Of a stretch of DNA of 64,000 nt, positions 3,681 through 29,320 are shown piece after piece. The notes under the pieces were generated by a model. The model had not been told where the DNA came from and did no database searches. It was given only the letters and a program-made list of their open reading frames with translations. A program made the translations under genes and the position numbers. This DNA is from Antrihabitans auranticaus (GTDB lineage Bacteria; Actinomycetota; Actinomycetes; Mycobacteriales; Mycobacteriaceae). Numbering within the stretch: position 1 is the first letter of the stretch; each line of letters begins with the position of its first letter. The stretch spans positions 1,541,531-1,605,530 of the forward strand of contig NZ_JAEMNW010000001.1 of NCBI RefSeq assembly GCF_016481275.1, given 5' to 3'.

Positions 3681-3989
3681 TCATTCCACCGACGCGCGCC
3701 GATGAAAAGGCGGTCGACCGGTTCCTTCCAGCCTGTAGCGACCCCAAAAGTCGAGGTCCCCAACTGTTGCAACCGACTCTCCTTCAGGCGTTTTCAACCT
3801 GGCCTTGGCGCGTCTCCCCCGCAGAACCTCGCAGAGCTGAGGGGCTGGCCGGGTGCGGCCGTACCAGCGATAGAGACCATCGATCGGCTGGAAAACGCCG
3901 CGCAGCTCGATCTCGACGTCGAAATCGCAACCGTCGATCGTCAGTCTGCCGGGTCCTATGTAGTCCGAGCGTTCGTGTGAATCAGCCAT
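3681..3989 (-). CDS. Stand-alone DUF4873 domain protein
   Basis: The 102-residue protein matches the DUF4873 pattern: a YIGPGRLTIDG opening, an E-L-RG-F-PIDG-YRWYGR centre, a KARLKTPEGESVATVGD strand and a GRYRLEGTGRPPF end. This domain is known mostly as a C-terminal appendage of actinobacterial flavin-containing monooxygenases. Here it is a separate gene, divergent from a cassette that contains such a monooxygenase, so an accessory role for that enzyme is a reasonable inference. The ATG at 3989 is chosen because AAGGA lies 10-14 bases upstream on the minus strand. The frame stays open further upstream to 4490, but that part has no domain and overlaps the divergent promoter region. Confidence 0.8.
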   Translation of the reverse strand: MADSHERSDYIGPGRLTIDGCDFDVEIELRGVFQPIDGLYRWYGRTRPAPQLCEVLRGRRAKARLKTPEGESVATVGDLDFWGRYRLEGTGRPPFHRRASVE

Positions 3990-4267
3990 ATGTGCTGTCT
4001 TCCTTAGGGTTTCGGATTGCTTCTTGCGGTCAGCCGACACCTTCGCATCCACTCCCGCCCTCATGAGAGTGTGGTCCTCTCGGAAGCAACATCGGGACTT
4101 GACAACCGACGCGCTTACGCACAAAGGTATAGCATACTCCGAGTAACGGCTACTGCCTCGTTGGTCAAACTCGCTGGAAGGCAAACGCGTCTGCGAGACG
4201 ACCAACGCCCGCCACACAGGCGGATGCGGATACCGGAAGCACTCGAACTCTGCAAAGGATGGCGAAG
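3990..4267. promoter_or_regulatory. Divergent promoter region of cassette A
   Basis: This spacer separates the DUF4873 gene (minus) from the AurF-like gene (plus). It is more AT-rich than its surroundings. A TTGACA hexamer lies at 4099-4104 and a short inverted repeat GTAT-AGC-ATAC at 4127-4137, which could be an operator half-site pair. The Shine-Dalgarno AAAGGA at 4254-4259 serves the ATG at 4268. Promoter assignment is by inspection only, because the hexamer spacing is not ideal. Confidence 0.4.
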
Positions 4268-5239
4268 ATGACAAGTCAAAAAGTTGCAATGAACAACGAC
4301 AGCACCTCCGGCGATCGCTCGGTGCGGGTAGTCGGGAGGAGGCCGGTAGACATCCAGAAGTCCGCTGGCCGGCTACTGAGATCGTCTGCGGAGAAGTCTT
4401 ACGATGCTGAAGTCGACATCGACTGGGACAGTCCGTGGGTGCCAGACAAGAAATGGCTACCCGAACACAGGACCTCGCTCTACGGTACAAAGATCTGGCA
4501 GCGACTCACTCCGGCACAGCGAGTGGAGCTAGGCAAACATGAAATCGTGAGCATACTGAGCTTCGGCATATACGCCGAGAATTTCTTGAGCTCTGCATTG
4601 CTACGCACGGCCGCCAGAGGCGACCTCACGGACGACAAATCGCTTTACGCCCTGACTGAGGTCGGCGACGAGTCGCGCCACTCGACGATGTTTGCTCGAT
4701 TGATCAATAAAACTGGTATCGCGCCATACAAACTACCGATCGGGACTCTAACCTTCGCGAAGATCCTTCACTTTATTCCTCTCGGGCCGTCCGTATCCGG
4801 CGCGACGTTGCTTATCGAGGAAATACTGGACCGAGGCCAGCGTGAAGCAATGAACGACGAAGAATTACAACCGCAACTCAGGCAACTCATGAAGATTCAC
4901 GTACTTGAAGAAGCGCGACATATTACGTTTGCGCGGATGGAACTCGTTGACGGCATGCAAAGCCGTCGCAGAGTGACACGAGCATGGCACCGCGGAGTAC
5001 TCGCCGTCATCGCAAATCTCGCATACCCGATTCTAGTCAATCCACGTGTGTACCGATCAGTCGGCATACATCCAGTGAGGGGATTCATCGCATGCCAATT
5101 CGGCCCCCACTACAGAGAGAATCTTCAGTTCATGTCGGAGCCGATGATTCGTTTCTTCTATGAAGCGGGAATGCTCGACGGAAAGATCACCGGCTGGCTT
5201 TGGAGATTGAGCAGAAGCCTTCCGGACGACTTGAAGTGA
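4268..5239 (+). CDS. AurF-like non-heme diiron oxygenase
   Basis: The 323-residue protein belongs to the AurF (p-aminobenzoate N-oxygenase) ferritin-like family. The likely diiron ligands are visible: Glu104 in IYAEN, the ExxH pair Glu135/His138 in DESRHSTMF, Glu184 or Glu185 in LLIEEIL, and His211 with Glu215/His218 in IHVLEEARH. The order E, ExxH, E, H, ExxH is that of AurF. Family members N-oxygenate aryl amines or hydroxylate carbon. The substrate here is not evident, and the neighbours (BVMO, SDR, reductase) suggest oxidation of a hydrocarbon or ketone. It is first in a probable operon, with the BVMO starting 107 bp downstream. ATG 4268 is chosen over 4259 because AAAGGA then sits 8 bases upstream. 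Third positions are noticeably more AT-rich than in the CYP153 operon, hinting at separate ancestry. Confidence 0.85.
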   Translation: MTSQKVAMNNDSTSGDRSVRVVGRRPVDIQKSAGRLLRSSAEKSYDAEVDIDWDSPWVPDKKWLPEHRTSLYGTKIWQRLTPAQRVELGKHEIVSILSFGIYAENFLSSALLRTAARGDLTDDKSLYALTEVGDESRHSTMFARLINKTGIAPYKLPIGTLTFAKILHFIPLGPSVSGATLLIEEILDRGQREAMNDEELQPQLRQLMKIHVLEEARHITFARMELVDGMQSRRRVTRAWHRGVLAVIANLAYPILVNPRVYRSVGIHPVRGFIACQFGPHYRENLQFMSEPMIRFFYEAGMLDGKITGWLWRLSRSLPDDLK

Positions 5240-5346
5240 CTGCTTCGCATCATATTTTCCGATGATCCCGCCGCGCGGCACCGCTCGTCGCGCGACTTCC
5301 AAGACAAATGACTCCAACGACTGCAAACTCACCCTAGAGGATACAA

Positions 5347-6924
5347 ATGACGACACGCACAACCAGGAAGTCGAAGCCCAGTTCGGCCGGTGCCAAGATT
5401 CACCGCACAGACGTACTGATAGTCGGCAGCGGATTCTCCGGACTAGGCATGGCGATGCAGCTTCGCAAGGCTGGACTCGATGATTTCCTTATCATCGAAA
5501 AGGCATCCGACATAGGCGGAACGTGGCGCGACAATGTATACCCTGGTTGCGCCTGCGATGTGCCGTCCTACATGTACTCGTATTCGTTCGAACCCAGATC
5601 CGACTGGAGCAAAGTATGGGCGGGGCAACAAGAGATCCAGGACTATCTCACCGGTCTGGCCACGAAGTACGACTTGTACTCCCGCACGCACTTCGGCTGT
5701 GCTCTCTCCAGCGCCTATTGGGATGAGGCTGAATCGAGATGGCGTGTCACGACATCTGACGGAAGCGAGTATGTCGCACGCTTCCTAATCTCCGGAATTG
5801 GCGCTCTCCACATACCGAACATTCCCGACATCAAAGGTCAGGACACATTCAATGGGCAATCGTTTCATTCAGCACAATGGGATCACGAATGCTCGCTGGA
5901 GGGTAAGCGGGTAGCCGTGATCGGCACCGGCGCAAGTGCCATTCAATTTGTGCCCAAGATAGCGCCGCTAGTCGCCGAATTGCAGCTATATCAGCGGACA
6001 CCAGCATGGGTGCTTCCGCGCAGGAACTTCTCCGTCCCGGGTTCCCTCCAAAAGATGTTCGCCCGCACACCCCTGCTGCCGAGAATCCTGCGCTCCGCGA
6101 TCTACTGGTCCGCGGAATCTCTGGCGATCGGGCTCAACGGGCACTCCAACCTGATGCGGCCAATCGAATATATAGCGAGGCGGAACATCGCCCGTTCCAT
6201 CGATGATCCTGCGCTACGAGAGCGTCTGACTCCCGACTATCGAATTGGCTGCAAACGAATCCTCGGATCGAACGACTACTATCCGGCTCTGAACTTGCCG
6301 TCGACAACCGTGATCACCGATGGAATCGCAGAAATCAACGAAGATCGTATCGTTTCTACGGACGGCCAGGAGCGCAAGGTCGACGTAATCATCTATGCAA
6401 CCGGATTCCACGTCACCGACGGATTCGACAGCCTTAAGTTGAAAGGTTCTACCGGTCTCGAGTTGGCAGCACATTGGAATAACAGCGGAATTAACACCCA
6501 TCTGGGAATTACGGCAGCCGGATTTCCGAACCTCTTCTTCCTACTCGGGCCGAATACGGGGCTGGGTCACAACTCAGTAGTTTTCATGATTGAATGCCAA
6601 ATCAAATATGTGCTCCAAGCGATTCGGTTGACTTCCGAACGCCAAGCAGACGCACTCACCGTGCGAGAGTCTGTTCAAAATGCCTTCAACAGCACAATCC
6701 AGCGCAAACTGGCCAACGGAGTCTGGACCAACGGCGGCTGTACAAGTTGGTACCTCGATTCGAACGGTGTCAACCGGACAGTGTGGCCCGGCTTCACCTG
6801 GCAGTACTGGTTACAGACTCGCAAGGTGTCCGAGTCCGACTTCGAATTTACCGGACGTCCAGAATCGAATACGACAAAGCGGGATACAGCAGGCGCCGAC
6901 ATGGCAGAAAAGGCGAAGTCATGA
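5347..6924 (+). CDS. Baeyer-Villiger flavin monooxygenase (cassette A)
   Basis: This 525-residue class B flavoprotein monooxygenase has an FAD-binding GSGFSG at residues 27-32 and a BVMO fingerprint of the FxGxxxHxxxW type (FNGQSFHSAQW, near 167-177). A second, NADPH-binding Rossmann motif GTGASA lies near 195. The C-terminal half keeps the GPNTGLGHNS and CTSWYLD blocks seen in EthA/MymA-like and 4-hydroxyacetophenone monooxygenase-like enzymes. The family inserts one oxygen next to a ketone, using NADPH and O2. The start has AGAGGA just upstream. The stop overlaps the SDR start (ATGA), so the two are translationally coupled: the dehydrogenase would make the ketone this enzyme uses. It is paralogous to the BVMO at 25723-27276. 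Confidence 0.92.
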   Translation: MTTRTTRKSKPSSAGAKIHRTDVLIVGSGFSGLGMAMQLRKAGLDDFLIIEKASDIGGTWRDNVYPGCACDVPSYMYSYSFEPRSDWSKVWAGQQEIQDYLTGLATKYDLYSRTHFGCALSSAYWDEAESRWRVTTSDGSEYVARFLISGIGALHIPNIPDIKGQDTFNGQSFHSAQWDHECSLEGKRVAVIGTGASAIQFVPKIAPLVAELQLYQRTPAWVLPRRNFSVPGSLQKMFARTPLLPRILRSAIYWSAESLAIGLNGHSNLMRPIEYIARRNIARSIDDPALRERLTPDYRIGCKRILGSNDYYPALNLPSTTVITDGIAEINEDRIVSTDGQERKVDVIIYATGFHVTDGFDSLKLKGSTGLELAAHWNNSGINTHLGITAAGFPNLFFLLGPNTGLGHNSVVFMIECQIKYVLQAIRLTSERQADALTVRESVQNAFNSTIQRKLANGVWTNGGCTSWYLDSNGVNRTVWPGFTWQYWLQTRKVSESDFEFTGRPESNTTKRDTAGADMAEKAKS

Positions 6925-7781
6925 GGACATTTTCGAATAAAGTCGTTGCGATCACGGGAGCGGGATCAGGAATTGGGCGCGCACTCGCGCTGCAGCTTGC
7001 CGCAGAGGGCTCCCGATTGGCGTTGTCCGACGTCAACATCGACGGGGTTTCCGAAACGGCCGCGCAGTGCCAATCACTGGGCTCTCTTGCTCGAGCCTAT
7101 AAGCTCGACGTCGCCGACAGAGAAGCGTTCAAGGACCATTGCTCGGCGGTAATCGAGGACTTCGGCTCCGTCAACATGTTGGTCAACAACGCCGGCGTGG
7201 CTCTGGGCGCCGACGTCCTCGACATGAATTGGGAAGACTTCGACTGGTTGATGGGAGTCAACTTCTGGGGTGTCGCGAACGGGACGAAACTGTTCCTCCC
7301 CAAACTCATCGAGTCGGGCGACGGGCACGTTGTGAATGTTTCCAGTGTATTCGGGCTGATGGCGATTCCTAGTCAAAGTGCCTATAACGCCGCCAAGTTT
7401 GCGGTCCGAGGGTTCACCGAAGCCCTTCGACAAGAAATGAAAATTGAACGCCACCCGGTTGGCGTGACATGTGTGCATCCAGGTGGCATAAAAACAAACA
7501 TAGCGCGTAATGCTCGCGGCGTTGAGGCCATTGGCGACCTTGGGAAGATGGTCGAGCACTTCGACCGAATAGCCTTGACAACACCGGAGCGAGCAGCGAG
7601 CGCGATCCTGAAGGGAGTGCGTCACAATAAGCCTCGCGTGCTGATTGGACCAGACGCTCGGGGATTCGATGTGATCACTCGGGTGGTTGGGCCACGCTAT
7701 CAGGATATAAATGCGCCTTTGGCCCGCCTGGGCTACGCGATCGGGCGGAAGTCGGGTTTGCTGCGTAGCGAGACGCCGTAG
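6921..7781 (+). CDS. SDR family oxidoreductase (cassette A)
   Basis: This 286-residue classical short-chain dehydrogenase/reductase has the cofactor motif TGAGSGIG at residues 13-20, NNAG at 89-92, catalytic Ser141 or Ser142, and Tyr155-x3-Lys159. It most likely interconverts a secondary alcohol and a ketone with NAD(P). The ATG overlaps the TGA of the upstream BVMO, and the frame extending further upstream lies inside the BVMO gene, so the start is well fixed. It is similar in type to SadH of the mycobacterial mymA operon. The second cassette contains another SDR at 23944-24780. Confidence 0.92.
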   Translation: MRTFSNKVVAITGAGSGIGRALALQLAAEGSRLALSDVNIDGVSETAAQCQSLGSLARAYKLDVADREAFKDHCSAVIEDFGSVNMLVNNAGVALGADVLDMNWEDFDWLMGVNFWGVANGTKLFLPKLIESGDGHVVNVSSVFGLMAIPSQSAYNAAKFAVRGFTEALRQEMKIERHPVGVTCVHPGGIKTNIARNARGVEAIGDLGKMVEHFDRIALTTPERAASAILKGVRHNKPRVLIGPDARGFDVITRVVGPRYQDINAPLARLGYAIGRKSGLLRSETP

Positions 7782-7842
7782 CTTTTTCGCTCGCAGCCTG
7801 AGTTATTGAACTATTTGTCATAAATCACGAAGGATCTGTACC

Positions 7843-8883
7843 TTGACTTCATTGAGCCCTGGGCTGGAACTCCGCGTTGCTGAAGTTTTCCAGGAGAGCC
7901 CACAGGCGATATCCATCGTCTTCGACGTCCCGGATTCGGGCGTCGAGCATTTCCAGTATCTACCTGGCCAGTTTCTAACGCTCCGTGTTCCGAGCGAGAG
8001 GGATGGATCTGTTGCACGTTGCTATTCGTTGTCGAGTTCTCCGCACACCGAAGATACCCTTGCGGTCACGGTTAAACGGACCGAAGGAGGATACGCCTCC
8101 AACTGGTTGTGCGACAACATCGAATCGGGAATGATTTTAGCAGTACTTCCCCCTGCCGGCCACTTCACTCCAAGGGACCTCGATCGAGACATGGTGTTGT
8201 TCGCTGCCGGCAGCGGTATCACTCCTATCATGTCCATTATCAAATCCGCACTGGCCGAGGGCTCGGGCCATATCACGCTGTTCTATGCGAATCAGGACTC
8301 CGAGAATGTGATCTTCGGTCCAGACCTAGCCCACTACGCAAAGCAATATTCGGAACGCCTCGACATTCAGAGCTGGCTTGAGAGCGAGCAAGGTTTGCCG
8401 ACCGCAGATGTCGTGAAATACCTGTGTTCGGCGCACCGAAATTCTGAATTCTTCGTCTGTGGCCCTCCGCCATTCATGGATCTAGTCGTTAGATCTGCGG
8501 AAAGCGTGAACGTCACCCACGACAGAATACACCGCGAGGTTTTTCAATCGCTGCATGGTAATCCCTTCGAGGTGAAGGAACGCGCCAAATCCGCCTCGGC
8601 CGAAGACAGCGCACAAGCGATCGTCTATCTGAACGGCGAGAAGATCGAGATCGCGTGGCCGAGAGATCTCGGGCTGCTGGACGCGCTATTGAACGAGGAC
8701 TACTCACCACCGTACTCATGCAAAGAGGGGAGTTGCGGCGCGTGCGTGTGCAGACTGCTGCAGGGGGATGTGGCCATGTTGGCGAACGATATCCTCGTCG
8801 CTGCCGACATCGCGGAAGGCGAGCGCCTAGCATGTCAGGCACTCCCTTTGACCGATGAGGTTACCGTCACCTTCGACATCTGA
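7843..8883 (+). CDS. FAD / 2Fe-2S oxidoreductase, KshB-like electron transfer protein
   Basis: The 346-residue protein has three domains in order: an FAD domain with the RCYSLSSSP motif near residue 60, an NAD(P)H domain with GSGITP near 122 and FCGPPPF near 205, and a C-terminal plant-type 2Fe-2S ferredoxin domain. The ferredoxin cysteines are CKEGSCGAC near 292-300 plus a last Cys near 332. This layout matches reductases of the 3-ketosteroid 9-alpha-hydroxylase (KshB) and phenylacetyl-CoA epoxidase type, which pass electrons from NAD(P)H to an oxygenase. Inside this cassette the likely partner is the AurF-like diiron enzyme. The start is TTG, supported by AAGGA 8 bases upstream. It lies 61 bp after the SDR. 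Confidence 0.9.
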   Translation: MTSLSPGLELRVAEVFQESPQAISIVFDVPDSGVEHFQYLPGQFLTLRVPSERDGSVARCYSLSSSPHTEDTLAVTVKRTEGGYASNWLCDNIESGMILAVLPPAGHFTPRDLDRDMVLFAAGSGITPIMSIIKSALAEGSGHITLFYANQDSENVIFGPDLAHYAKQYSERLDIQSWLESEQGLPTADVVKYLCSAHRNSEFFVCGPPPFMDLVVRSAESVNVTHDRIHREVFQSLHGNPFEVKERAKSASAEDSAQAIVYLNGEKIEIAWPRDLGLLDALLNEDYSPPYSCKEGSCGACVCRLLQGDVAMLANDILVAADIAEGERLACQALPLTDEVTVTFDI

Positions 8884-9033
8884 CCACAACCTCGAAATCG
8901 CTTCGCTCGTGGTCGCTGTCCCTTTTCGACAACTAGCGGGGGGAGACATCCGTGCGCGCCTCCGCGAGAAATCGGAGTGTCATGTAGTCTCGGCACGTTA
9001 GACGCGGGCGTAGCATCAACAGTCGGAGACGGT

Positions 9034-9768
9034 GTGGTCAAAAGGGTTGACGCACGTTCATCTCGTTGGTTCGATCACCGCGCGGCGGTACGTGCGGACA
9101 TAGTCGAGGCGGCTTTTCGCGCTTTCGACAAGAATGGCCCAGACGCACACATGGATGACATCGCCAAAGAAGCTGGTGCTACAAAAACCAAGTTATACAG
9201 ACACTTCAACGATAAGCGCGATCTGCATGATGCTGTCGCTCGCCGTGTCAAGGCCTTGCTCTGGGAGGGCGTTCTTGGAAGCATCAATTTCGAGTCGGAC
9301 TCTATCGACGACATTATTCACACGGCGGTTAGTCAGTACGCGCATTTGGTAGATCTCCATCCGAACGTATTTCGCTACCTGATGCGTAGCCATTTCTCCG
9401 ACCGTTCTGGAGGTCCCGACCCTGCTCTGGATGACACCCAGCAACTTGCGACGCTCATCTCCGATCACTTCGCATCGGCACTGCAAAGTTCGGGAGTGAG
9501 CACCAAAGGGATCGACATGACTGTTCGTTCGATTGTCGGCGCCGGTCTCTCGGCCACCGACTGGTGGATCGAGTCTCAGTTCAGTCGCAGCCGAGCCTTG
9601 TCTTTAGACGATTTCATCGGTCAGCTCAGCGTAATTATTTGGGGTATCATCGACGCCACCAGCCGTTCGCGAAACGTCGAGTTCAGGCGCCATTTGCCCC
9701 TAGATTCGTCTAATGTTCGCGTCATAGACGAAACTCGATCCAGTGCGGAACAGCCGGTGATCAAATGA
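9034..9768 (+). CDS. TetR family transcriptional regulator (cassette A)
   Basis: A regulator of about 244 residues has a TetR N-terminal domain: RADIVEAAFRAFDKNG, then HMDDIAKEAGATKTKLYRHFNDKRDLHDAV. Its all-helical C-terminal domain is likely the ligand pocket. GTG at 9034 is preferred because GGAGA lies 4 bases upstream. An in-frame GTG at 8977 would add 19 residues without a clear ribosome binding site. It follows the reductase gene on the same strand and is a natural candidate to control cassette A; this is inferred from position only. Confidence 0.83.
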   Translation: MVKRVDARSSRWFDHRAAVRADIVEAAFRAFDKNGPDAHMDDIAKEAGATKTKLYRHFNDKRDLHDAVARRVKALLWEGVLGSINFESDSIDDIIHTAVSQYAHLVDLHPNVFRYLMRSHFSDRSGGPDPALDDTQQLATLISDHFASALQSSGVSTKGIDMTVRSIVGAGLSATDWWIESQFSRSRALSLDDFIGQLSVIIWGIIDATSRSRNVEFRRHLPLDSSNVRVIDETRSSAEQPVIK

Positions 9769-10239
9769 TTGCATCAAATGCTTTCCCTCGGGCACCGGCA
9801 AGGTCATTAGGTTCGTTCTATGTCGAGACGGCGCCCTTAGTCGGTGCGGCGTCGTAACTATTGCCTCCGGCGTTTTCACCAGTTGCATGGTGCACCAGTT
9901 GCCTGCGGCGTTGCACCCGTGCGGTTCGTCGCGGTCCGGCACCGACGAGCACGTCTCCGCTTCCGGACCGGGCGCAGAATTGTTCTTCACAAGAGGTTTT
10001 CGGGTACGAACCGGTTACCAACGTGGCAGGTCGCAGTAGAGGTGTTGTTCGGCTTCGACCCTTTCGAAGGCTCCCCGAGGGTGGTCAACTCGCGTCACTA
10101 GCCAGGTATCGGAAGTTCGGCACGCGGTTCAGTTTCTATCTGAGTCTGCGGCGCGTTGCGCAGCCTCTCCCCCGTCCACGCCTATGTCGATCCACGCCAA
10201 AACAGACCGGCCGCAAACTGGCTCTTCAGATTTAGCAGG
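9769..10239. other. No recognisable gene
   Basis: This stretch between the TetR gene and the ISL3 relic contains only short frames on both strands with no recognisable domains. Confidence 0.5.
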
Positions 10240-12614: not shown

Positions 12615-13481
12615 ATGACCGCAAATCAGGAACAGGTACGGACCGCGCCGATCGACCGTGTCAAGCCGCGACGGATCAAGTTCGAATTCGGTGAACCGAC
12701 GCCGATGGTGCGGCACTTCGCGAACAACGACCTGGTGTTCAGTCATCTCATCGCCACGCTGTCGATGTCGTTTCCTGTCGGTGAAGAGTTGTTCATCCGG
12801 TCGGTTCGCCGGTACAGCGACCAGATCGCTGATCCCGTGCTGCGGCAGCAGATTCGAGGCTTCATCGGTCAGGAAATGTCGCACGGGCAAGAACACCGTC
12901 GACTCAACGACAAGCTCGTGGAAATCGGGTACAGCACCAGGACGGTGGACACAATCCTCAAGGGCGTAGAGCGCTTAGAAGGATGGTTGCCAAAGCGTGG
13001 ACCGTTGGCGATGACCGCGGCGGCGGAGCACTTCACGGCAGTCCTCGCGGAGCGAATCCTGTCCAGTCAGGAGGTGCAGGACATGGCCCACGATCCGGAG
13101 GTCAAGAACCTGCTGATGTGGCATGCGCTCGAGGAGGTCGAGCACAAGGCTGTGGCGTTCGACGTGTACAAAGCCGTCGGCGGCCGCGAATGGTCGCGAA
13201 TCATGACGATGGTGACGATGTTCGGCGTCGCGTTCCCGCTCATCGCTGCAGCAACGCTGGTTTCGGTGGTTCAGGATCCGAAGGGGCGCAATCCGGTGCG
13301 AATTGCTCGTGGAACTGTGGCGACGCTGCGGGGGCCGCTCTTCAAGGGGATGACGCCACTCCTGTTGCGCTATATGAAGCCGGGCTTCCACCCCTCCGAC
13401 ATCGACAACGAGGCGCTTCTCGAGTACTGGCGCGCTGAATTGTTCGGTACCGAGGGCACCCTCGTCGACCATCTCACATAG
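12615..13481 (+). CDS. Predicted metal-dependent hydrolase (PF10118 family, ferritin-like diiron)
   Basis: The 288-residue protein matches the actinobacterial 'metal-dependent hydrolase' family. It has carboxylate and histidine clusters typical of a helical diiron fold: Glu57/Glu58 in PVGEELF, Glu87-x2-His90 and His94 in GQEMSHGQEH, and an ALEEVEHK motif near residues 171-178. A hydrophobic segment near 200-220 may associate with membranes. The biochemical role of the family is not settled; members often lie beside BVMO, P450 and SDR genes in lipid or hydrocarbon clusters. A strong AAAGGAGG ribosome binding site precedes the ATG. It is the only intact non-IS gene in a 10-kb IS-rich stretch, so it may be a stranded part of cassette A or B. 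Confidence 0.82.
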   Translation: MTANQEQVRTAPIDRVKPRRIKFEFGEPTPMVRHFANNDLVFSHLIATLSMSFPVGEELFIRSVRRYSDQIADPVLRQQIRGFIGQEMSHGQEHRRLNDKLVEIGYSTRTVDTILKGVERLEGWLPKRGPLAMTAAAEHFTAVLAERILSSQEVQDMAHDPEVKNLLMWHALEEVEHKAVAFDVYKAVGGREWSRIMTMVTMFGVAFPLIAAATLVSVVQDPKGRNPVRIARGTVATLRGPLFKGMTPLLLRYMKPGFHPSDIDNEALLEYWRAELFGTEGTLVDHLT

Positions 13482-20003: not shown

Positions 20004-21143
20004 TCATCCGGCCTCGGCTTGCGTCGAACCAGCCGTGGCCGTAGCAACGACAGATCTGACGAACTCACCGATGTCTGTAATAGCTCGGCGCGCGTCCGGG
20101 TTGAAATCTGCGCCAACCTGGAATACGTGCGGTGCCCGATCCCACACTTGAAGCCAATTGGACACGCCGTCTTCATTAAGTCGGCGTGCAAGCTCGGCCG
20201 CATCATGACGCAGAGCCTCGCGCGACCCCACCTGTTGCAGGAAGGGGCCGAGACCGGACAAATCGCAATGCACCGGGCACTGCAACACTGCTTCGGTTCC
20301 GTTCTTGGTGACAAATACGTCGTTAATGAACTTCAACGTTGCCGACGGAAACATGGCGTCCGGAAATGGCCGCATCGGGGGGAGTTTGGTGCGCATGTCG
20401 CAATCCGTAAGTCCGGAAAGCAAAACCTGAGCGGCGGGGAGGGGCAAACCCGCCTCCTTTATGCTGAGGGCGGTCATCGTAGCGAGAAAACCCCCGGCTG
20501 AATCTCCAGCGATAACAATGGAATTCGCGCTCGTTCCCGACGCGAGAAGCATTCGATATGCATCGAGTCCGTCAGCGATCGCATCGGCGATAGGACTGAT
20601 CGGAAGCATCCTGTAGTCGACGCTCAACACCCGCGCGCACGCAGCACGCGAAATGTGACTGATCATTCGTCGGTGGCTTCCGAGCCCGCAGGTGATGAAT
20701 GCGCCACCGTGTAAGTAGAGGATCGTAGGTGCGTCGGGTCCGACTGCTTCGGGTGCACTCACCCACTCCGCCTTGCAATGCGGGAGCTGAACGTTCTCGA
20801 GAAGTGTGTTCTTGATCGGCCGAGTCAAGACAGACGGTTTGTCGGCCAAAGCAAACGACATGCGCTGCAGAGTTTCGGGATTCCGGCTATTGCATGCGCG
20901 GCCCAGCAAAGTGAGTGCGAACAGCAGCGGCTTCAGCGTTCGGGCCATAACCGCCGCGTTGACACGCGTCTGCCACGCAGCGGGGCCGATCATTTCAACG
21001 TGAGGTCGATTCCATTTCTCTGAGTCTGGCTCGTAAATGCGATTCACGCCGAGTGGCACGGTCGTTCTCCTCATCAGTGCGGCACCATTACCGGCAACAA
21101 ATGCCAGATTCGCTACTGGGAGTAGCGAAGTTGAACCTATCAT
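20004..21143 (-). CDS. Alpha/beta hydrolase, HSL (hormone-sensitive lipase) family esterase
   Basis: This 379-residue hydrolase shows the HSL-family signatures: oxyanion-hole HGG at residues 145-147, nucleophile motif GDSAG at 213-217 (Ser215), a candidate acid in PVHCDLSGLG near 300, and a candidate His in APHVFQV near 340. Such enzymes cleave medium-chain esters. It resembles LipR of the mycobacterial mymA operon in type and context. In the proposed route it would hydrolyse the ester or lactone made by a BVMO. ATG 21143 gives the longest protein; ATG 21074 is also possible. Neither has a strong ribosome binding site. A small fragment of a related gene lies at 13512-13580. Confidence 0.88.
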   Translation of the reverse strand: MIGSTSLLPVANLAFVAGNGAALMRRTTVPLGVNRIYEPDSEKWNRPHVEMIGPAAWQTRVNAAVMARTLKPLLFALTLLGRACNSRNPETLQRMSFALADKPSVLTRPIKNTLLENVQLPHCKAEWVSAPEAVGPDAPTILYLHGGAFITCGLGSHRRMISHISRAACARVLSVDYRMLPISPIADAIADGLDAYRMLLASGTSANSIVIAGDSAGGFLATMTALSIKEAGLPLPAAQVLLSGLTDCDMRTKLPPMRPFPDAMFPSATLKFINDVFVTKNGTEAVLQCPVHCDLSGLGPFLQQVGSREALRHDAAELARRLNEDGVSNWLQVWDRAPHVFQVGADFNPDARRAITDIGEFVRSVVATATAGSTQAEAG

Positions 21144-22906: not shown

Positions 22907-23539
22907 CTAAGAATCTTGCCGGAGATACCGTTCCGACAGCGTCGCTGCCAGTCGACTCGTATGGTCGACGATATGCTGGGCATCCACGTCGAGCAGGCCA
23001 GATTGCCATGCGCTGATCAGCTCGACGAATCCACCGACGGCGACAAGGGTGTCCATGCGAAGACCGGTTTCATCGGCCCCCGGTCGCAAATGTGGTTGCG
23101 CGGCGAGAAGTACAAGTTCAGTCGCCTGTTGGAGCGCGGCCGCCCGGTGATCCTGAAGTGCGCTACCGACATGATGCATCAGGAGGATTTGAGCACGGCC
23201 GGTGTCACTCGCCGTGCGTTCTACGACGGCAGAAATCGCAGCGCGAAGGGTAACCAGCATCGGCTGATGCAGATTGCTAACGAATACGCCAGAAACTTCG
23301 CCGAACACTTCATCACGAGCGTTCTCCCACGCCGCGACGAGCAAAGCGTCGCGGTCTTTGAAGTCCTCGTAAAAATACCGATCGTTCAACGAGGTCCGGG
23401 AACAGACACCGCGCATCGTGACTGCGGCCCAGCCGCTTTCACCCCAAATCTCGGTCGCTGCGTCGATTAGCCGCTTCCTACGCTCGGCACGACGTTCCTC
23501 CGTGGTACGCCCACCCCACGTTCCAGCTGCTACACGCAC
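22907..23539 (-). CDS. TetR family transcriptional regulator (cassette B)
   Basis: A regulator of about 210 residues has an N-terminal TetR domain: ERRAERRKRLIDAATEIWGESGWAAVTMRGV, then SRTSLNDRYFYEDFKDRDALLVAAW. Its C-terminal domain is helical. GTG at 23539 is a plausible start; the frame is open further upstream to 23614. It is divergent from the SDR / diiron / BVMO operon that starts at 23944, with a 404-bp spacer, and is the obvious candidate repressor of that operon. Confidence 0.83.
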   Translation of the reverse strand: MRVAAGTWGGRTTEERRAERRKRLIDAATEIWGESGWAAVTMRGVCSRTSLNDRYFYEDFKDRDALLVAAWENARDEVFGEVSGVFVSNLHQPMLVTLRAAISAVVERTASDTGRAQILLMHHVGSALQDHRAAALQQATELVLLAAQPHLRPGADETGLRMDTLVAVGGFVELISAWQSGLLDVDAQHIVDHTSRLAATLSERYLRQDS

Positions 23540-23943
23540 ACCCCCATCTTGACAAGGCGGACGGCGAACCGCAAACTGGTGGCATGTGCAGGCAATGGTG
23601 TCACGCGACACCAAAATGGTTCCGCGCGTCGCCGCCGCTGAAGTCCAGCCGCGGCAGCGAGAGTCGTCTTTGCGCGTGTGGCGTCCAGCGAACTGCTTTG
23701 GCTAGACGAACGCCGATGCTGGCCGAACTGTCGATGATCGACGCGGCCAGGGCAGCACCGAGCATCCCTTGTACCGGCGCGATCTGATCATTCTTTCGGA
23801 CTCGCGCAAAAACCACGCGCGCCATCGGCGCACCGGCCGCACCTTTTCCAGGTGCTCTCAGGTTCCTTGCCGGAATCGGCTTGGCGCTAGGACTAACTGC
23901 CGTACCAGTCGGGCCGCCCAGGCTCACCATAAAGAGGAGACTC
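23540..23943. promoter_or_regulatory. Divergent control region of cassette B
   Basis: This spacer lies between the TetR gene and the SDR gene. I recognise no gene here, though frames are open on both strands. The Shine-Dalgarno AAGAGGAGA at 23931-23939 serves the GTG at 23944. I could not identify a convincing operator by eye. Confidence 0.4.
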
Positions 23944-24780
23944 GTGAAAATTCTGTCGTTCGGTGGGTCCGACCGCCGTACTCAACAGGCCGATGCGGTG
24001 GTCACAGGCGCGGGCAGCGGAATCGGCCGCGCGTTTGCTTCTGAGCTTTCTCGCCGGGGCGGCCGGGTGGTGTGTGCGGACATTGATCCGATCCGGGCGA
24101 AAGAGACTGTCACGCTGATTACGGAAGCTGGTGGACGGGCCGTCGACTTCTGTTGCGACGTCTCTAACGAGCAACAGGTTCTCGAACTTGCCGACGCCTC
24201 GGAGCGTTGGTTGGGAAACGCGGTCGGCCTAGTGATTAACAACGCTGGAATCGGCGTCGGCGGAAATCTGATTGGCGAAACGGCGATGCGCGATTGGCGT
24301 CGGACTCTTGACGTCAATCTATGGGGCGTAATTCATGGATGCGAGGTATTCGTGCCGCGCTTGCGCGCGCGAGGTAACGGCGGAGTCATCAACGTGGCCT
24401 CGGCAGCCAGTTTCGGTGCGGCACCTCGGATGGGTGCCTACAACGTGAGCAAAGCCGGTGTCCTGGCGCTGTCGGAAACACTGGCGGCAGAACTCAGCGG
24501 GACCGGCGTCGCGGTCACGGTGCTGTGCCCGACTTTCGTCAAGACCAACATCATAGACAGTAAGGAGATCGAGCAGTCTGCCGCCAAGCTGGCGGCCACG
24601 CTTATGAAGTGGACCGGTGTGTCCGCGGAGTCGGTTGCGCGAAGCACCCTCGACGCACACGACCGCGGGCAACTTCATGTTCTTCCGCAATTCGACGCAA
24701 AGATTGCGTGGCAAATTAAACGGGCGGCGCCTGCCACGTACACGCGGGCACTCGGCCTGATCGAGAGAATCGCGCGATAA
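23944..24780 (+). CDS. SDR family oxidoreductase (cassette B)
   Basis: This 278-residue classical SDR has the cofactor motif TGAGSGIG at 21-28, NNAG at 99-102, catalytic Ser near 153, and Tyr166-x3-Lys170. The GTG start is chosen because of the strong AAGAGGAGA just upstream. An upstream extension in frame adds an unsupported segment. It most likely oxidises a secondary alcohol to the ketone used by the downstream BVMO. It is first in a three-gene operon and only 22 bp before the diiron gene. Confidence 0.92.
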   Translation: MKILSFGGSDRRTQQADAVVTGAGSGIGRAFASELSRRGGRVVCADIDPIRAKETVTLITEAGGRAVDFCCDVSNEQQVLELADASERWLGNAVGLVINNAGIGVGGNLIGETAMRDWRRTLDVNLWGVIHGCEVFVPRLRARGNGGVINVASAASFGAAPRMGAYNVSKAGVLALSETLAAELSGTGVAVTVLCPTFVKTNIIDSKEIEQSAAKLAATLMKWTGVSAESVARSTLDAHDRGQLHVLPQFDAKIAWQIKRAAPATYTRALGLIERIAR

Positions 24781-24802
24781 CCAACAAGGAAGTAGGAGAA
24801 CA

Positions 24803-25726
24803 ATGACGTTCGAATACAGCGAAATGCTGAAAACGATCAAGGATCGACAGTGGGCTCTGGCCGATATCGACTGGGACGCACCAGGTGCGGAGCTGATTAC
24901 CGACGAGCAGCGTCCCACCCTCAAACAATTCATGTCCGATGTGGTGTGGATCGAACATGTTGGCGCCCGAGCCTTCGCAGCAATGGCACCCAAGGCGCCC
25001 TTCGAGGATCTCAAGAATATCTACACCTACTTCCACGCCGAGGAACAGCGTCATGCCAACGCCGAGTTGGCGTTGATGCACCGCTGGGGAATGCTCGAAG
25101 AAGGCGAAACGCCCGTGCCGAACAAAAACATTCGCCTCGTGATCGAGTGGTTGGACCGCTACGCTGACGATCTCCCTCTCACGGTGATCGGATCAGCGAT
25201 CCCAGCACTGGAATGCGCCCTCGACGGCGCGCTGCTGAAGTTTTTGCTCGATGAAGTTCACGACCCTGTATGTGGTGAAGTCTTCAAGAATATCAACAAC
25301 GACGAGTCACGGCATTTGGCAGTCGGCTTCCAGGTACTCGACCAACTCGGTGCGAGCCCCATCCGCCGACACGTGATCGAAATGGCGGGAACATTGCTAC
25401 GGCCGGACTTTGCTCTCGGCTTCGTGCTGTACGCCCCTCTGCTGGCCAGGATGATGGCAAACATTGCCGCGATGGGACTGTCCGAGGAGAAGTTGTACAA
25501 CGCGGTCAACCGGTACTCGAATGTGGGAGACCGAAGCGAAAACACTCGGCGGTTGCCGACTTATCACCTCATGAAGTACCACATGGCGATTGCCATCAAA
25601 CAGACACAGCCCTTCCAGTATGTCGCCGAGAAAATGGGTATTGCGATCGACCACTTCCCAACTCGGGTGCTCGGCAAAGTCCCCTCGTGGACGAAGGAAC
25701 TCACATACGAACCGGTGTCGAGATGA
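24803..25726 (+). CDS. Ferritin-like diiron protein (cassette B)
   Basis: The 307-residue helical protein has two carboxylate-histidine pairs typical of a diiron site: Glu81-x2-His84 in FHAEEQRHAN and an ExxH in NNDESRHLAVGF near residue 168. Additional acidic ligands are likely at Glu51 and in ALECALDG near 138. It differs in sequence from the AurF-like protein of cassette A but occupies the equivalent position between an SDR and a BVMO. Function is unproven; a hydroxylase or desaturase-like oxygenase is the most likely guess. A strong AAGTAGGAGA precedes the ATG. The stop overlaps the BVMO start (ATGA). Confidence 0.8.
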   Translation: MTFEYSEMLKTIKDRQWALADIDWDAPGAELITDEQRPTLKQFMSDVVWIEHVGARAFAAMAPKAPFEDLKNIYTYFHAEEQRHANAELALMHRWGMLEEGETPVPNKNIRLVIEWLDRYADDLPLTVIGSAIPALECALDGALLKFLLDEVHDPVCGEVFKNINNDESRHLAVGFQVLDQLGASPIRRHVIEMAGTLLRPDFALGFVLYAPLLARMMANIAAMGLSEEKLYNAVNRYSNVGDRSENTRRLPTYHLMKYHMAIAIKQTQPFQYVAEKMGIAIDHFPTRVLGKVPSWTKELTYEPVSR

Positions 25727-27276
25727 CAGAGACATCGACGGTTCTGATCATCGGAGCTGGGTTCGCCGGCCTTGGCACCGCTATCCGGCTGTTGCAAAAG
25801 GGGATCGACGACTTTGTCATCCTCGAACGTGGCCACGAGGTAGGCGGCACCTGGCGTGATAACACATACCCCGGCGCCGCATGCGATATTCCGTCGCTGC
25901 TCTACTCGTACTCTTTCGAGCCGAACCCGGAGTGGTCGCGCACGTACTCCAGTAGCGACGAGATCCTCGGTTACATAAAGCACATCGTGGGCAAGTATCA
26001 GCTCGAGCAGCATATCCGTTTCGGAGCGAATGTCACAGGAATCGGCTTCGATGACGAAACCGGGACGTGGACGGCGGAAACGGAGGGTGGTACTGCCTAT
26101 CGCGGACGGACGGCAGTTGTAGCGTCGGGACCGCTAGCAAATGCGAGCCTGCCCGATATACGTGGGCTCGATTCTTTTGCGGGCCACAAAATCCACAGCG
26201 CTCGCTGGGATCATAGTTATGACATTTCCGACAAGCGGATAGCGGTGATCGGTACGGGCGCCAGTGCCGTGCAGATTATTCCGGAAGTGGTCAAAGCTGC
26301 GCATAGCGTCAAAGTGTTTCAGCGCACTGCGGGTTGGGTCCTGCCCCGCGTGGACTTGCCTCATCCCGAATGGACGAAGTCGATGTTCCGTCGACTGCCG
26401 ATTACGGAGAGTTCTGCGCGACAGGCGTGGTTCTGGCTTCACGAGATGATGGCGCTCGGCATGGTGTGGGACACGCCCGTCACCACCGCGATCCAATGGG
26501 TCGCGCGGGCGAATCTGCGCCGACAAGTGAACGATTCATGGACCAGATACCAGCTCATGCCCGATTTCCGCCCTGGGTGCAAGCGAATGCTGATGAGCAA
26601 CGACTACTACCCGGCTCTTCAGCAGGACAATTGCAAGCTGATCACATGGCCAATTGCGACGTTAGCGCCAAACGGGATTCGCACCGCGGACGGGATCGAA
26701 CACGAGGTGGATTGCATTGTTTTCGCGACAGGATTCGACGTATGCAAAACCGGCACCCCCTTTCGTGTGACCGGCCTGGGCGGGCGGCAACTCGCTGAGG
26801 AATGGTCTCGTGGCTCCTATGCATACAAGAGCGTCAGCGTGTCTGGATACCCAAACCTGTTCTTCACCTTCGGTCCAAACTCCGGTCCGGGGCATAACTC
26901 AGCTCTGGTCTACATGGAGTCCGCGATCGATTACATCGTCAAGGCCGTTAAATTCATCGTCGAAGATGATTTGCTCAGCTTCGACGTGCGCGCGGATCGC
27001 CAGCAAGAGTTTCACCACCAGGTGCAGCGTCGACTTGCGCGGACCACCTGGAACTCGGGCTGCAAGAGTTGGTACCTCACTGCAGACGGTTACAACGGCA
27101 CGATGTTTCCCGGCTTCGCGACGCAGTTCGCGCGGCAGTTAGCTTCCATCGAACCGCGAGACCATGTGACGTCCAATCTGGTGACACGCGAAGAAAAGGA
27201 CGGACAGGGGCCGTCGCCGGCCAACTTGAGTCCGCGGGGGGATTGGCCTGCCTTGCTGGCACCGTCGTCGGATTAG
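25723..27276 (+). CDS. Baeyer-Villiger flavin monooxygenase (cassette B)
   Basis: This 517-residue class B flavoprotein monooxygenase has FAD motif GAGFAGLG near 9-16, BVMO fingerprint FAGHKIHSARW near 152-162, NADPH motif GTGASA near 178, and conserved FTFGPNSGPGHNSA and CKSWYLT blocks near the C-terminus. It is paralogous to 5347-6924. The ATG overlaps the TGA of the diiron gene, so the two are translated together. It probably converts the ketone from the SDR to an ester or lactone. The last 30 residues are variable and proline-rich. Confidence 0.92.
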   Translation: MTETSTVLIIGAGFAGLGTAIRLLQKGIDDFVILERGHEVGGTWRDNTYPGAACDIPSLLYSYSFEPNPEWSRTYSSSDEILGYIKHIVGKYQLEQHIRFGANVTGIGFDDETGTWTAETEGGTAYRGRTAVVASGPLANASLPDIRGLDSFAGHKIHSARWDHSYDISDKRIAVIGTGASAVQIIPEVVKAAHSVKVFQRTAGWVLPRVDLPHPEWTKSMFRRLPITESSARQAWFWLHEMMALGMVWDTPVTTAIQWVARANLRRQVNDSWTRYQLMPDFRPGCKRMLMSNDYYPALQQDNCKLITWPIATLAPNGIRTADGIEHEVDCIVFATGFDVCKTGTPFRVTGLGGRQLAEEWSRGSYAYKSVSVSGYPNLFFTFGPNSGPGHNSALVYMESAIDYIVKAVKFIVEDDLLSFDVRADRQQEFHHQVQRRLARTTWNSGCKSWYLTADGYNGTMFPGFATQFARQLASIEPRDHVTSNLVTREEKDGQGPSPANLSPRGDWPALLAPSSD

Positions 27277-27766
27277 GAATGATTTCCCGATACCGGATCC
27301 CAGTCCGGCTGCGCTTGTGCAGTGCCGAACCGAAAGTCGAGTGGAGGACACCGCTGAAGTGAATAACCGGATTTTCCGAGAGGCTCCCGCGGGTGTCACC
27401 GGCAATTCCTTGGCAAATTGCCATCCCACGCCAATGCCAGTACTTCGACAGTCACCACGACTTCCATCTCGACCTACTAAGACGAATCGAACGTCCTGGC
27501 GCCGTACTGGATTCGGTTTGACGGGCTACACGTTCGAAGCAATAGCGCCGCTAGGTGGCTATCGCCGCGTTGAACTCTCTGAAACCGCCTAGTAACTTTG
27601 GCTGGAGCGGTTTTAGGGAATCAAGTGGGTGTTAAGCGTCGCGATCGACGGTGCGGAATGTGCGGAGCGCACGGATAACCCCGAAGACTTTTGATGACGC
27701 CGCTCAATACAGCAACAAAATTCCCCGATCTTAATCGATACCAACTTTGCAGACGAGGAGCACAGG
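27277..27766. other. Spacer between the BVMO and acyl-CoA ligase genes
   Basis: No gene is recognisable. A short inverted repeat GTGCG-GAG-CGCAC lies at 27660-27672, about 100 bp before the ligase start. GAGGAG just upstream of 27767 is the ligase ribosome binding site. Confidence 0.45.
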
Positions 27767-29320
27767 ATGGACAACGGAATCGGCGGTTGGGTTACCAAGC
27801 GCGCCTTTCTGAACGGGGACAAGACAGCCTTCGTGGCCGGCGAACGCACATTGAGTTATAGGGACGTCGAGCGTCGCACAAACAAACTCGGGTCCGCGCT
27901 ATTTGACCTGGGTGTGCGCAAGGGTGACCGGGTCGCTGCGTTGCTGTTCAATTCGGTGGAGTTCATGGAGGTGCTGATCGCCACCGCCAAGATCGGAGCC
28001 ATCCTAGTGCCAATCAATGTGCGGCTGGGTGCAGGCGAGATCGGCTATATTCTTGCCGATTCCGGTGCGGACACGTTCGTGGTCCACCAACCCCTCGCCG
28101 CGACTGGACGGGCGGCTGTGGCGGAGCCCGAAGTGCGGGTCCGCAATATGATTACGGTGGGTGGTGAGCCGAGCAACGCCGAGTTCCGCTACACCGAGCT
28201 GCTGGACGGCGGTTCTCCTGAGCCGCTCCGCGCCTATGTCGAGGGTCGTGACGTCGCGTTCATCATGTACACGTCGGGCACCACGGGGCGTCCGAAGGGC
28301 GCAATGCTGACCCACGACAATCTACTATGGAACGCGATCAACGTGCTGGCCACCGAGCAAGGCCTGAGACAGAGCGACATCACAGTCACTGTGGCGCCCA
28401 TGTTCCATATCGGCGGGCTTGGCGTGCATACTCTACCGCTGCTCTACGTCGGCGGGACCAACGTGATACTGCCGTCTTTCGACCCGGCCGCGACATTGAA
28501 GGTGATGGCGCTGTGTCGAGCGACCGTGCAGTTCATGGTGCCCGCTATGTGGGCGGCGATCACCCAGGTGCCGGACTTCGACAAGTACGATCTGTCGGCC
28601 CTGAGATTGGCCATGGTCGGTGGTGCCCCGTGCCCGTTGCCGGTGATCGAGTTCATGCAGCAGCGCGGCGTCCCCTTTACCGAGGGTTTCGGGATGACCG
28701 AGACGGCACCTCTGGTGTCTATCCTCGATGCTGCGCACGTTGTCGAGAAGGCAGGTTCGATCGGTCGCGTGGCTATGCATGTCGAGAGCCTCATCGTCGA
28801 CGGTGACGATCGCGGCGTCGCGGCCGGTGCCGTAGGAGAGCTAATTGTGCGCGGCCCCAACGTGTTCAGCGGATACTGGATGCGTCCCGAGGCCACCGCT
28901 GACGCGTTTCGTGGTGGCTGGTTTCACACCGGGGACCTCGGCCGGATCGACGAGCAAGGTTTCATAACTCTGGTCGACCGCAAGAAGGACATGATTATCT
29001 CCGGTGGCGAAAACGTCTATCCCATCGAAGTCGAGCAGACCCTTTACCACCATCCTGGTGTGCGCGACGCCGCAGTTGTTGGCGGTCCCGACGAAAGGTG
29101 GGGTGAACGCGTGGTCGCGGTGGTCGTCGCGGCCCCCGAAGCACAGCAGCCAAACGCTGAAGAGTTGATCGCATGGTGCCGGGAGCGATTGGCCCATTTC
29201 AAGTGCCCGCGCGAGGTGCACTTCGTGACCGAACTCCCCCGCAACGCCACCGGCAAACTACTAAAGACTGATTTGCGCTCGCGGTTCACGGGCGTCGCAG
29301 GAGGCGTGGTTCAACGCTGA
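27767..29320 (+). CDS. fadD: Acyl-CoA synthetase / AMP-dependent ligase (FadD type)
   Basis: The 517-residue protein is an ANL-superfamily ligase. The AMP-binding P-loop MYTSGTTGRPKGAM lies near residues 167-180. GFGMTET near 306, GWFHTGDLG near 384, DRKKDMIISGGENVYP near 404-420 and the C-terminal catalytic lysine region TGKLLK near 498 are all present. It activates a carboxylic acid to acyl-AMP and then acyl-CoA. The overall architecture is like FadD13 of the mymA operon. Its place behind the BVMO operon fits activation of an acid released by the esterase. The 490-bp spacer suggests its own promoter. Confidence 0.93.
   Translation: MDNGIGGWVTKRAFLNGDKTAFVAGERTLSYRDVERRTNKLGSALFDLGVRKGDRVAALLFNSVEFMEVLIATAKIGAILVPINVRLGAGEIGYILADSGADTFVVHQPLAATGRAAVAEPEVRVRNMITVGGEPSNAEFRYTELLDGGSPEPLRAYVEGRDVAFIMYTSGTTGRPKGAMLTHDNLLWNAINVLATEQGLRQSDITVTVAPMFHIGGLGVHTLPLLYVGGTNVILPSFDPAATLKVMALCRATVQFMVPAMWAAITQVPDFDKYDLSALRLAMVGGAPCPLPVIEFMQQRGVPFTEGFGMTETAPLVSILDAAHVVEKAGSIGRVAMHVESLIVDGDDRGVAAGAVGELIVRGPNVFSGYWMRPEATADAFRGGWFHTGDLGRIDEQGFITLVDRKKDMIISGGENVYPIEVEQTLYHHPGVRDAAVVGGPDERWGERVVAVVVAAPEAQQPNAEELIAWCRERLAHFKCPREVHFVTELPRNATGKLLKTDLRSRFTGVAGGVVQR

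Follow-up and report, generated by a model that had tools for sequence, protein, structure and literature searches.

Here, we report that a 64,000-nucleotide stretch of the Antrihabitans auranticaus genome (G000:C1:1541531-1605530; below, the window) carries two gene cassettes, A and B, each joining a diiron-type protein with a short-chain dehydrogenase (SDR) and a type I Baeyer-Villiger monooxygenase (BVMO), and that this diiron-BVMO pairing is real and occurs beyond chance in this and related genomes. The own genome (G000) comprises 6.5 Mb in 24 contigs. The cassette genes are real and intact, being uninterrupted open reading frames (ORFs) with the motifs of their families, as an original prediction made from the same DNA had proposed: cassette A encodes an AurF-family protein, BVMO_A, SDR_A and a reductase, cassette B encodes SDR_B, a ferritin-like protein (Ferr) and BVMO_B. 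We lean, at slightly better than even chances, towards a model according to which both cassettes are mobile relays of the same design, in which diiron hydroxylation would be followed by SDR, BVMO, hydrolase and CoA ligase steps, acting in parallel as a subterminal complement to the CYP153-type cytochrome P450 (P450) system.

The pairing was assessed across 25 genomes, the own one plus 24 relatives, by counting diiron-type genes at a distance of at most 3 kb from a BVMO gene. All 12 ferritin-like genes lie within this distance (expected 0.36), as do 16 of the 79 AurF genes (expected 1.50, P 1e-12) and 14 of the 49 genes of a third family, PF10118 (expected 1.15, P 3e-12); since paralogues and close orthologues are counted among the rows, these P values overstate independence. 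The counts comprise 150 of 155 BVMO matches and all matches of the three diiron families. Stronger-scoring P450 genes, serving as a control (95 of 153 matches), show no such excess with 3/95 (expected 2.02, P 0.33), this control omitting rows weaker than about 1e-32 and hence CYP153-type enzymes, since the CYP153 of the window scores 8e-19 on the Pfam P450 profile. With the genus excluded, the numbers become 3/3 for ferritin-like, 4/43 for AurF, 3/19 for PF10118 and 0/49 for P450 genes. These co-localisation counts rule out that the cassette genes are chance neighbours, although the majority of AurF and PF10118 genes lie away from a BVMO. The original prediction had named a lack of co-occurrence in other genomes as a reason to abandon it; the families do co-occur there and the idea survived.

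The AurF protein of cassette A scores far above the curated cut-off of PF11583 (246.6 versus 29.6 bits). Following the ligand order of AurF, E..ExxH..E..HxxxExxH, its candidate diiron ligands are E107, E138, H141, E187/188, H214, E218 and H221, and this order is complete in 11 of 13 aligned AurF proteins. BVMO_A and BVMO_B both contain FxGxxxHxxxWD and two GxGxx[GA] motifs (the second as GTGASA) and thereby classify as type I BVMOs; the neighbouring BVMO_C carries FAGSLMHTALWD, its second GxGxxG being unmatched by the pattern used. The best matches of BVMO_A in the Protein Data Bank (PDB) are entries of a putative flavin-binding monooxygenase and of phenylacetone monooxygenase (E 2e-68 and weaker). 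SDR_A and SDR_B both contain TGxxxGxG and YxxxK, and the stop codon of BVMO_A overlaps the start codon of SDR_A as ATGA.

Orthologous cassettes of the same order are present on the plasmids pGKT3 of Gordonia KTR9, that of Rhodococcus erythropolis D310-1 and pCP61 of R. qingshengii, all with an α/β-hydrolase gene behind the reductase gene, which the window's cassette A lacks. Identities to the window in pGKT3/D310-1 are 75%/72% for AurF, 65% for BVMO, 64-65% for SDR and 54-55% for the reductase. A TetR gene trails cassette A in the window and also, there behind the hydrolase gene, in the loci L011 and L012, and the divergent DUF4873 gene has the same position in L011, L012, L134 and L117 and lies near cassette A in L128. 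L117, on contig C12 of the own genome, is a diverged cassette A with two AurF genes, of which a similar copy exists in genome G136 (L128). In these tandems (L117:7268-9221 and L128:8197-10240) H141 and E217/E218 are no longer present in the first copy and the second retains all ligands, suggesting a possible pair of a non-catalytic and a catalytic subunit. Cassette A is rare: of 298 genomes of the order, two were matched by its AurF profile at E 1e-100, no more than seven candidates being scored in each genome.

The cassette A reductase reaches 227 bits with TIGR02160 (PaaE, the phenylacetyl-CoA epoxidase reductase), below the cut-off of 421 bits, but shows the PaaE domain order, and we therefore use "PaaE-type" as a name only. 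Seventeen of its 36 relatives in the 25 genomes lie within 5 kb of any of the three diiron families (expected 0.99) and 14 within 3 kb (expected 0.66), PF10118 alone accounting for one of the latter (P 0.22). The strongest sign that reductases of this type serve AurF proteins is gene fusion: two AurF-neighbouring reductases, one in G000 and one in G298, lie in the same open frame as an AurF match. The G000 protein (787 residues; L129, G000:C8:30038-32398) comprises AurF (314 bits), FAD, NAD and 2Fe-2S domains, a 770-residue protein of G301 has the same domain set and a similar ORF of 769 residues was read by eye in G299, these single-chain fusions (L129, L131, L132) occurring in two genera. 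As a Rosetta-stone link, the fusions suggest that the reductase of cassette A is probably the electron donor of AurF, and the fused proteins could themselves be self-sufficient diiron monooxygenases. No fusion was found in plasmids by tblastn at E 1e-150, and a search of 397 genomes of the order at E 1e-220, in which two candidates were scored per genome, returned the own genome alone.

In cassette B, 22 bp separate SDR_B from the Ferr gene, the stop codon of which overlaps the BVMO_B start as ATGA. The candidate ligands of Ferr, E51, E81/H84, E137 and E168/H171, are invariant in 26 sequences including the window's own. As its Pfam match is sub-threshold only (AurF, 19.9 bits versus a cut-off of 29.6) and the HxxxExxH motif is absent, Ferr was classed as ferritin-like and not as AurF. 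Its structure model is moderate (predicted local distance difference test, pLDDT, 62.4), and Foldseek matches include R2lox, ribonucleotide reductase R2, aldehyde-deformylating oxygenase (ADO) and CmlI at E 5e-3 and weaker; PDB sequence searches with Ferr, the PF10118 protein and the AurF profile returned no useful match. BVMO_B is nearest to phenylacetone monooxygenase (E 5e-77) and steroid monooxygenase (E 1.5e-70). The original prediction had also placed an esterase and the acyl-CoA ligase FadD in this cassette. The esterase is rejected as a member of the operon, being encoded on the opposite strand 2.7 kb from SDR_B, whereas FadD is co-directional but begins 490 bp downstream.

We surveyed the best-scoring 80 of 403 relatives of cassette B, adjacency being the position of phmmer matches and some loci ending at contig ends. 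An SDR match is adjacent in 74 loci and TetR_B stands upstream in 75. An adjacent BVMO match is present in 77, of which 54 are full length; in Nocardia it is a truncated copy that is counted. The same stretch contains matches to PF10118 in 36, an α/β hydrolase in 52, FadD in 43, a P450 in 41 and AurF in two loci. The core of cassette B is found in Antrihabitans, Mycobacterium, Mycolicibacterium, Mycolicibacter, Mycolicibacillus, Mycobacteroides, Aldersonia and Nocardia as well as in metagenome-assembled genomes, and the cassette B DNA of the window is at least 99% identical to that of Antrihabitans stalagmiti and A. stalactiti, two congeners that correspond by contig coordinates to the genomes G298 and G299. 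At the loci of M. chubuense NBB4 and M. aubagnense, cassette B runs on into two more BVMO-annotated genes, an α/β hydrolase, a P450, FadD and an acyl-CoA dehydrogenase (ACAD). The Nocardia loci (L073-L095) show a separate feature: in 22 of 23, the remaining one ending at a contig end, an ORF of 165-262 residues begins at the ATGA overlap with the Ferr gene. The three copies examined align to the middle part of a BVMO only, without the N-terminal FAD motif, and are followed by an intact BVMO. Differences among 21 copies at the three codon positions are 0.26, 0.24 and 0.44, so that this ORF seems to be still coding.

The intergenic region between TetR_B and SDR_B contains a conserved dyad, TGGTGKC-N4-GMCACCA. 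In 70 such regions, which include the window twice (WIN, L096) and two near-identical Antrihabitans copies, it is perfect in 53, present with at most one mismatch in 59 and with at most two in all 70, compared to 0, 0 and 3 in 1400 shuffles, the pattern having been derived from these same regions and the shuffles preserving single-base content only. Across L013-L095 (1.63 Mb) there are 102 sites with at most one mismatch, 89 of them having SDR_B just downstream. The window's dyad is its sole match at up to two mismatches, a looseness at which about one is expected by chance, and at up to one mismatch the pattern was not found in the cassette A loci L011, L012, L117 and L128. We infer that the dyad is an operator marking the cassette B promoter, with the divergent TetR_B as its putative regulator.

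The original prediction had missed three elements of the window: the DUF4873 gene at 3681, the CYP153 module at 40.3-46.6 kb and, between the two cassettes, the PF10118 gene at 12615-13481. The label "metal-dependent hydrolase" of the latter is an annotation only. Its seven candidate ligands (E57, E87/H90, E138 and H170/E174/H177) follow the AurF ligand order, are invariant in 13 sequences and fall on four successive helices (40-68, 74-103, 129-150 and 161-177) of a helical AlphaFold2 model with a pLDDT of 87.7. The best PDB match of this model in Foldseek is AurF (2jcd), with a probability of 0.99 but an E of 0.036 and a modest TM score of 0.39, followed by desaturase, R2lox and VlmB entries, again with modest scores. 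Comparing PF10118 with AurF by hhalign aligns both metal motifs, weakly (P 0.008, probability 5%). Model and motifs together suggest that the PF10118 protein is probably an AurF-like diiron protein. In the own genome, PF10118 occupies the AurF slot of locus L125 (PF10118, PF10118, BVMO, SDR, hydrolase, reductase), and L121 contains PF10118, a weak reductase match, BVMO and SDR. Immediately to the left of the window, PF10118, a BVMO, two YrbE genes and several Mce genes follow one another on one strand (L123:7822-18522) and may represent a diiron-BVMO pair heading a lipid-import operon.

Whereas each cassette joins a diiron protein, an SDR and a BVMO as originally predicted, the further claim that A and B jointly form one route was not supported. 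Tblastn searches of plasmids returned the cassette A AurF (E up to 1e-60) solely from Gordonia KTR9, R. erythropolis D310-1 and R. qingshengii A29-k1, and the cassette B Ferr (E up to 1e-30) solely from M. chubuense NBB4, M. aubagnense and Tsukamurella; no plasmid record carried both. The two AurF matches within the searched stretches of the 80 Ferr loci are both weak (57 bits) and both in Nocardia. As A and B are found apart in plasmids and in genome loci, we reject them as halves of one route and suggest that they are most likely parallel, self-contained relays.

The setting is probably integrated conjugative or plasmid DNA, as suggested by a TrwC relaxase gene in the window and a TraG/VirD4-like coupling protein gene in its right flank, and the CYP153 module shares replicons with the cassettes. 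The best PDB match of the window's CYP153 is followed by further entries named P450 alkane hydroxylase or CYP153. On the D310-1 plasmid, about 16 kb containing YrbE/Mce genes separate cassette A from a CYP153 of 92% identity (423 residues), which stands with reductase and transglutaminase-like genes; on pGKT3 a CYP153 of 83% identity lies about 10 kb from cassette A, and in M. aubagnense one of 89% identity about 10 kb from cassette B. In M. chubuense NBB4 the fdx-cyp-fdr cluster, known as CYP153 from passages of PMC8784404, is located about 21 kb from cassette B on the same plasmid. Of five cassette A loci searched, three have YrbE/Mce matches: the D310-1 plasmid, L128, where they close the same-strand run, and the window, to the left of which they lie. 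L011 and L117 have none, and neither a CYP153 nor an Mce match was found beside the L117 copy. CYP153 on shared plasmids speaks for aliphatic hydrocarbons, whereas the Mce genes, next to cassette A in D310-1 and G136 and also to the left of the window, speak for a larger lipid that is imported; judged by this gene neighbourhood, the substrate is probably an aliphatic hydrocarbon or lipid. The transglutaminase-like gene recurs with the CYP153 module (window, L011, L133) and is joined by a BtrH-like gene on plasmids. In NBB4, an AtuA-family gene and a carboxylase/FadD/ACAD/thiolase set lie between cassette B and the CYP153 cluster (L014:30-12782, L135), hinting at branched or terpenoid substrates.

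According to the parallel-relay model, a compact diiron protein of ferritin/AurF type would hydroxylate a hydrophobic aliphatic substrate at a methylene carbon. In cassette A, the electrons would come from NAD(P)H and be delivered through the co-encoded PaaE-type reductase. The SDR would convert the secondary alcohol to a ketone, into which the BVMO would insert oxygen to yield an ester or lactone; an α/β hydrolase would cleave this product and the acyl-CoA ligase would pass the acid to β-oxidation. The divergent TetR would switch cassette B at the conserved operator, and the relays could act on different substrates or positions, complementing the CYP153 module of the same mobile element. This order of reactions, put forward in the original prediction, fits gene content, co-localisation, reductase pairing and the AurF-reductase fusions. 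More tentatively, and at somewhat less than even chances, AurF-like, cassette B ferritin-like and PF10118 proteins may together represent a class, so far largely overlooked, of compact and soluble diiron enzymes that hydroxylate C-H bonds, served by PaaE-type reductases to which they are sometimes fused and wired by operons to SDR-BVMO relays, i.e. a subterminal route for hydrocarbons or lipids using neither P450, AlkB nor a soluble diiron monooxygenase (SDIMO) for the first step.

Several observations weigh against the parallel-relay model. As far as is known, characterised AurF-family enzymes are N-oxygenases. The AurF and PF10118 counts outside the genus are small, no BVMO lies within 3 kb of 63/79 AurF and 35/49 PF10118 genes, a fully parallel PF10118 operon was found once only (L125) and the BVMO match of L121 has two internal stops. 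No cassette-A-type reductase was matched in the searched stretches of the 80 cassette B loci or near the window's cassette B, a reductase accompanying cassette B only in a divergent sub-clade (L015, L115 and three loci in G298, G301 and G307). In Nocardia the BVMO match beside the Ferr gene is truncated in 21 of 23 loci and none of the 23 has an adjacent full-length BVMO, an intact match following in the 22 loci whose stretch reaches further. In mycobacterial loci, one of the later BVMO genes of the cluster is the immediate neighbour of a P450.

Among the alternatives, the same chemistry might act on a bulky Mce-imported lipid, i.e. a steroid, hopanoid, other terpenoid or wax-like compound instead of an n-alkane, with the BVMO opening a ring or cutting a side chain. 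We regard this as unlikely, although of some weight: it agrees with the YrbE/Mce genes of the cassette A loci, the similarity of BVMO_B to phenylacetone and steroid monooxygenases, and the NBB4 locus, in which SCP2, ACAD and a second P450 come after cassette B and the AtuA-family (terpene utilisation) cluster adjoins it. Against it stand the CYP153 module accompanying cassette A on two of three plasmid records (the third, pCP61, read over 16.8 kb only) and the window itself, in which steroid ring-degradation genes were not recognised by eye, no dedicated search having been made. The substrates of CYP153 listed in passages of PMC8784404 are chiefly alkanes, although cyclohexene, limonene and fatty acids are also named. 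Less probable still is that the diiron protein is an N-oxygenase, desaturase, ADO or later-step enzyme, and that SDR and BVMO use carbonyls supplied by CYP153 or the second P450. The nearest solved folds do include the N-oxygenases AurF and CmlI, desaturases, ADO and R2lox, and a P450 match accompanies about half of the cassette B loci. However, the stronger-scoring P450s show no excess near BVMOs, CYP153-type enzymes being outside that control, and both the reductase pairing and the AurF-reductase fusion suit a monooxygenase. Moreover, CYP153 enzymes yield terminal alcohols, which do not feed a BVMO.

Very improbable, in our view, is that the set resembles mymA in function and serves cell-envelope lipids instead of a catabolic path. 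In favour of this reading, it shares with mymA the classes BVMO, SDR, lipase and FadD. Also in its favour, passages of PMC9044951 connect ethA and mymA mutants with mycolic-acid metabolism. The regulator of mymA, VirS, is of AraC type, whereas cassette B has a divergent TetR with a conserved operator and the AraC gene of the window sits by CYP153, so that identity with the mymA operon was rejected. The mymA operon is not known to contain a diiron gene, whereas diiron genes are present here; furthermore, plasmid relatives carry the CYP153 module and conjugation genes lie beside the window. Its envelope role likewise distinguishes the mymA operon from the relays proposed here.

Table 1. Coordinates and assignment evidence of the window's features (positions of the whole stretch).
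Feature	Position	Strand	Evidence and remarks
DUF4873 protein	3681-3992 (start approximate, ORF extends to 4490)	-	PF16170 E 1.1e-28; divergent from cassette A
AurF-family diiron oxygenase	4259-5239	+	PF11583 E 3.7e-73; ESRH and HVLEEARH motifs
Type I BVMO (BVMO_A)	5347-6924	+	FNGQSFHSAQWD motif
Short-chain dehydrogenase SDR_A	6921-7781	+	PF00106 E 1.8e-52
FAD/NAD/2Fe-2S reductase, PaaE type	7843-8883	+	PF00970, PF00175, PF00111; CX4CX2C...C motif
TetR-family regulator behind cassette A	8977-9768	+	PF00440 E 1.7e-11
PF10118 protein ("metal-dependent hydrolase")	12615-13481	+	PF10118 E 1.2e-74; between cassettes A and B
α/β-hydrolase esterase, hormone-sensitive lipase type	20004-21143	-	PF07859 E 8.5e-40; GDSAG
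TetR-family regulator TetR_B	22907-23614 (true start probably nearer 23536, by eye)	-	PF00440 E 2.5e-7; divergent from cassette B
Predicted operator dyad TGGTGTC-N4-GACACCA	23596-23613		perfect match to TGGTGKC-N4-GMCACCA
Short-chain dehydrogenase SDR_B	23881-24780 (start uncertain)	+	PF00106 E 1.3e-42
Ferritin-like diiron protein (Ferr)	24803-25726	+	E..ExxH..E..ExxH
Type I BVMO (BVMO_B)	25723-27276 (start about)	+	FAGHKIHSARWD
Acyl-CoA ligase FadD	27767-29320	+	PF00501 E 6.4e-93; motifs; downstream of cassette B
Transglutaminase-like protein	40305-41030	-	PF01841 E 4.1e-16; 85% identical in D310-1
Second P450	41027-42928 (P450 part from about residue 200)	-	PF00067 E 2.5e-65; PDB CYP120, then CYP51, E 1.6e-46 and weaker
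Ferredoxin reductase	42553-44031 (true gene about 42553-43755)	-	PF07992 and PF14759; 80% identical in D310-1
CYP153-type P450 alkane hydroxylase	43752-45143	-	best PDB match 5fyf, E 2.4e-212
AraC-type regulator	45582-46628	+	PF12833 E 1.5e-19; divergent from CYP153 gene
TrwC relaxase	51698-57625		

The Pfam scans behind these assignments covered 20 window proteins including all cassette genes; Rfam and tRNA scans of the window gave no match. Several transposase ORFs, recognised by eye, lie between cassettes A and B, and near-identical transposase ORFs at 13888-14868 and 31675-32436, together with further ORFs of insertion sequence type, bracket the esterase and cassette B (by eye). Outside both cassettes, two similar TetR-family ORFs (2535-3302 and 46906-47571) were noted by eye, as was an ORF on the minus strand (60934-61731) resembling a RES-domain protein, a kind known from toxin-antitoxin pairs.

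The physiological substrates and roles of BVMOs have been little explored, as passages of PMC12724338 and PMC9044951 state, and the own genome contains about 29 BVMO genes. A recurrent diiron and reductase partner hints at the step preceding the BVMO and brings substrates within reach of testing. Should the diiron proteins hydroxylate unactivated carbon, they would be small soluble and partly self-sufficient catalysts, and the Pfam family PF10118, now named a hydrolase, would need renaming. In addition, mobile DNA for alkane degradation, so far known for CYP153, gains a possible subterminal branch.

Subterminal oxidation with a BVMO is itself already known. Passages of PMC12724338 report BVMO-catalysed subterminal alkane oxidation in R. 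erythropolis XP (BVMO_4041), with 2-hexadecanol, 2-hexadecanone and myristyl acetate as C16 intermediates; the sequence of secondary alcohol, ketone and ester and the activity of the BVMO on medium-chain ketones resemble the relays proposed here, whereas these passages give no diiron or SDR partner gene and leave the subterminal hydroxylase unnamed. The CYP153 cluster of M. chubuense NBB4 has, like the window, an AraC gene divergent from its P450 operon (fdx-cyp-fdr), the available passages of PMC8784404 being silent on the nearby diiron-BVMO cassette. Among the literature matches listed, mostly at title or abstract level, we found no description of AurF-like, ferritin-like or PF10118 proteins being recurrently paired with SDR and BVMO, nor of an AurF-reductase fusion. 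The N-oxygenases AurF, CmlI and VlmB share the AurF family or fold and the ExxH and HxxxExxH motifs with the AurF-like proteins described here but act in biosynthetic N-oxygenation, whereas the genes reported here stand in operons with BVMO, SDR and reductase. No multi-subunit SDIMO hydroxylase was detected in the Pfam scans of the 20 window proteins. The propane pathway of Gordonia sp. TY-5, comprising PrmABCD, an alcohol dehydrogenase, the BVMO AcmA and the esterase AcmB, follows the same logic of diiron monooxygenase, dehydrogenase, BVMO and esterase; its diiron enzyme is a multi-subunit SDIMO, whereas the diiron proteins of the window are AurF-like or ferritin-like and, in cassette A, encoded in one operon with a PaaE-type reductase.

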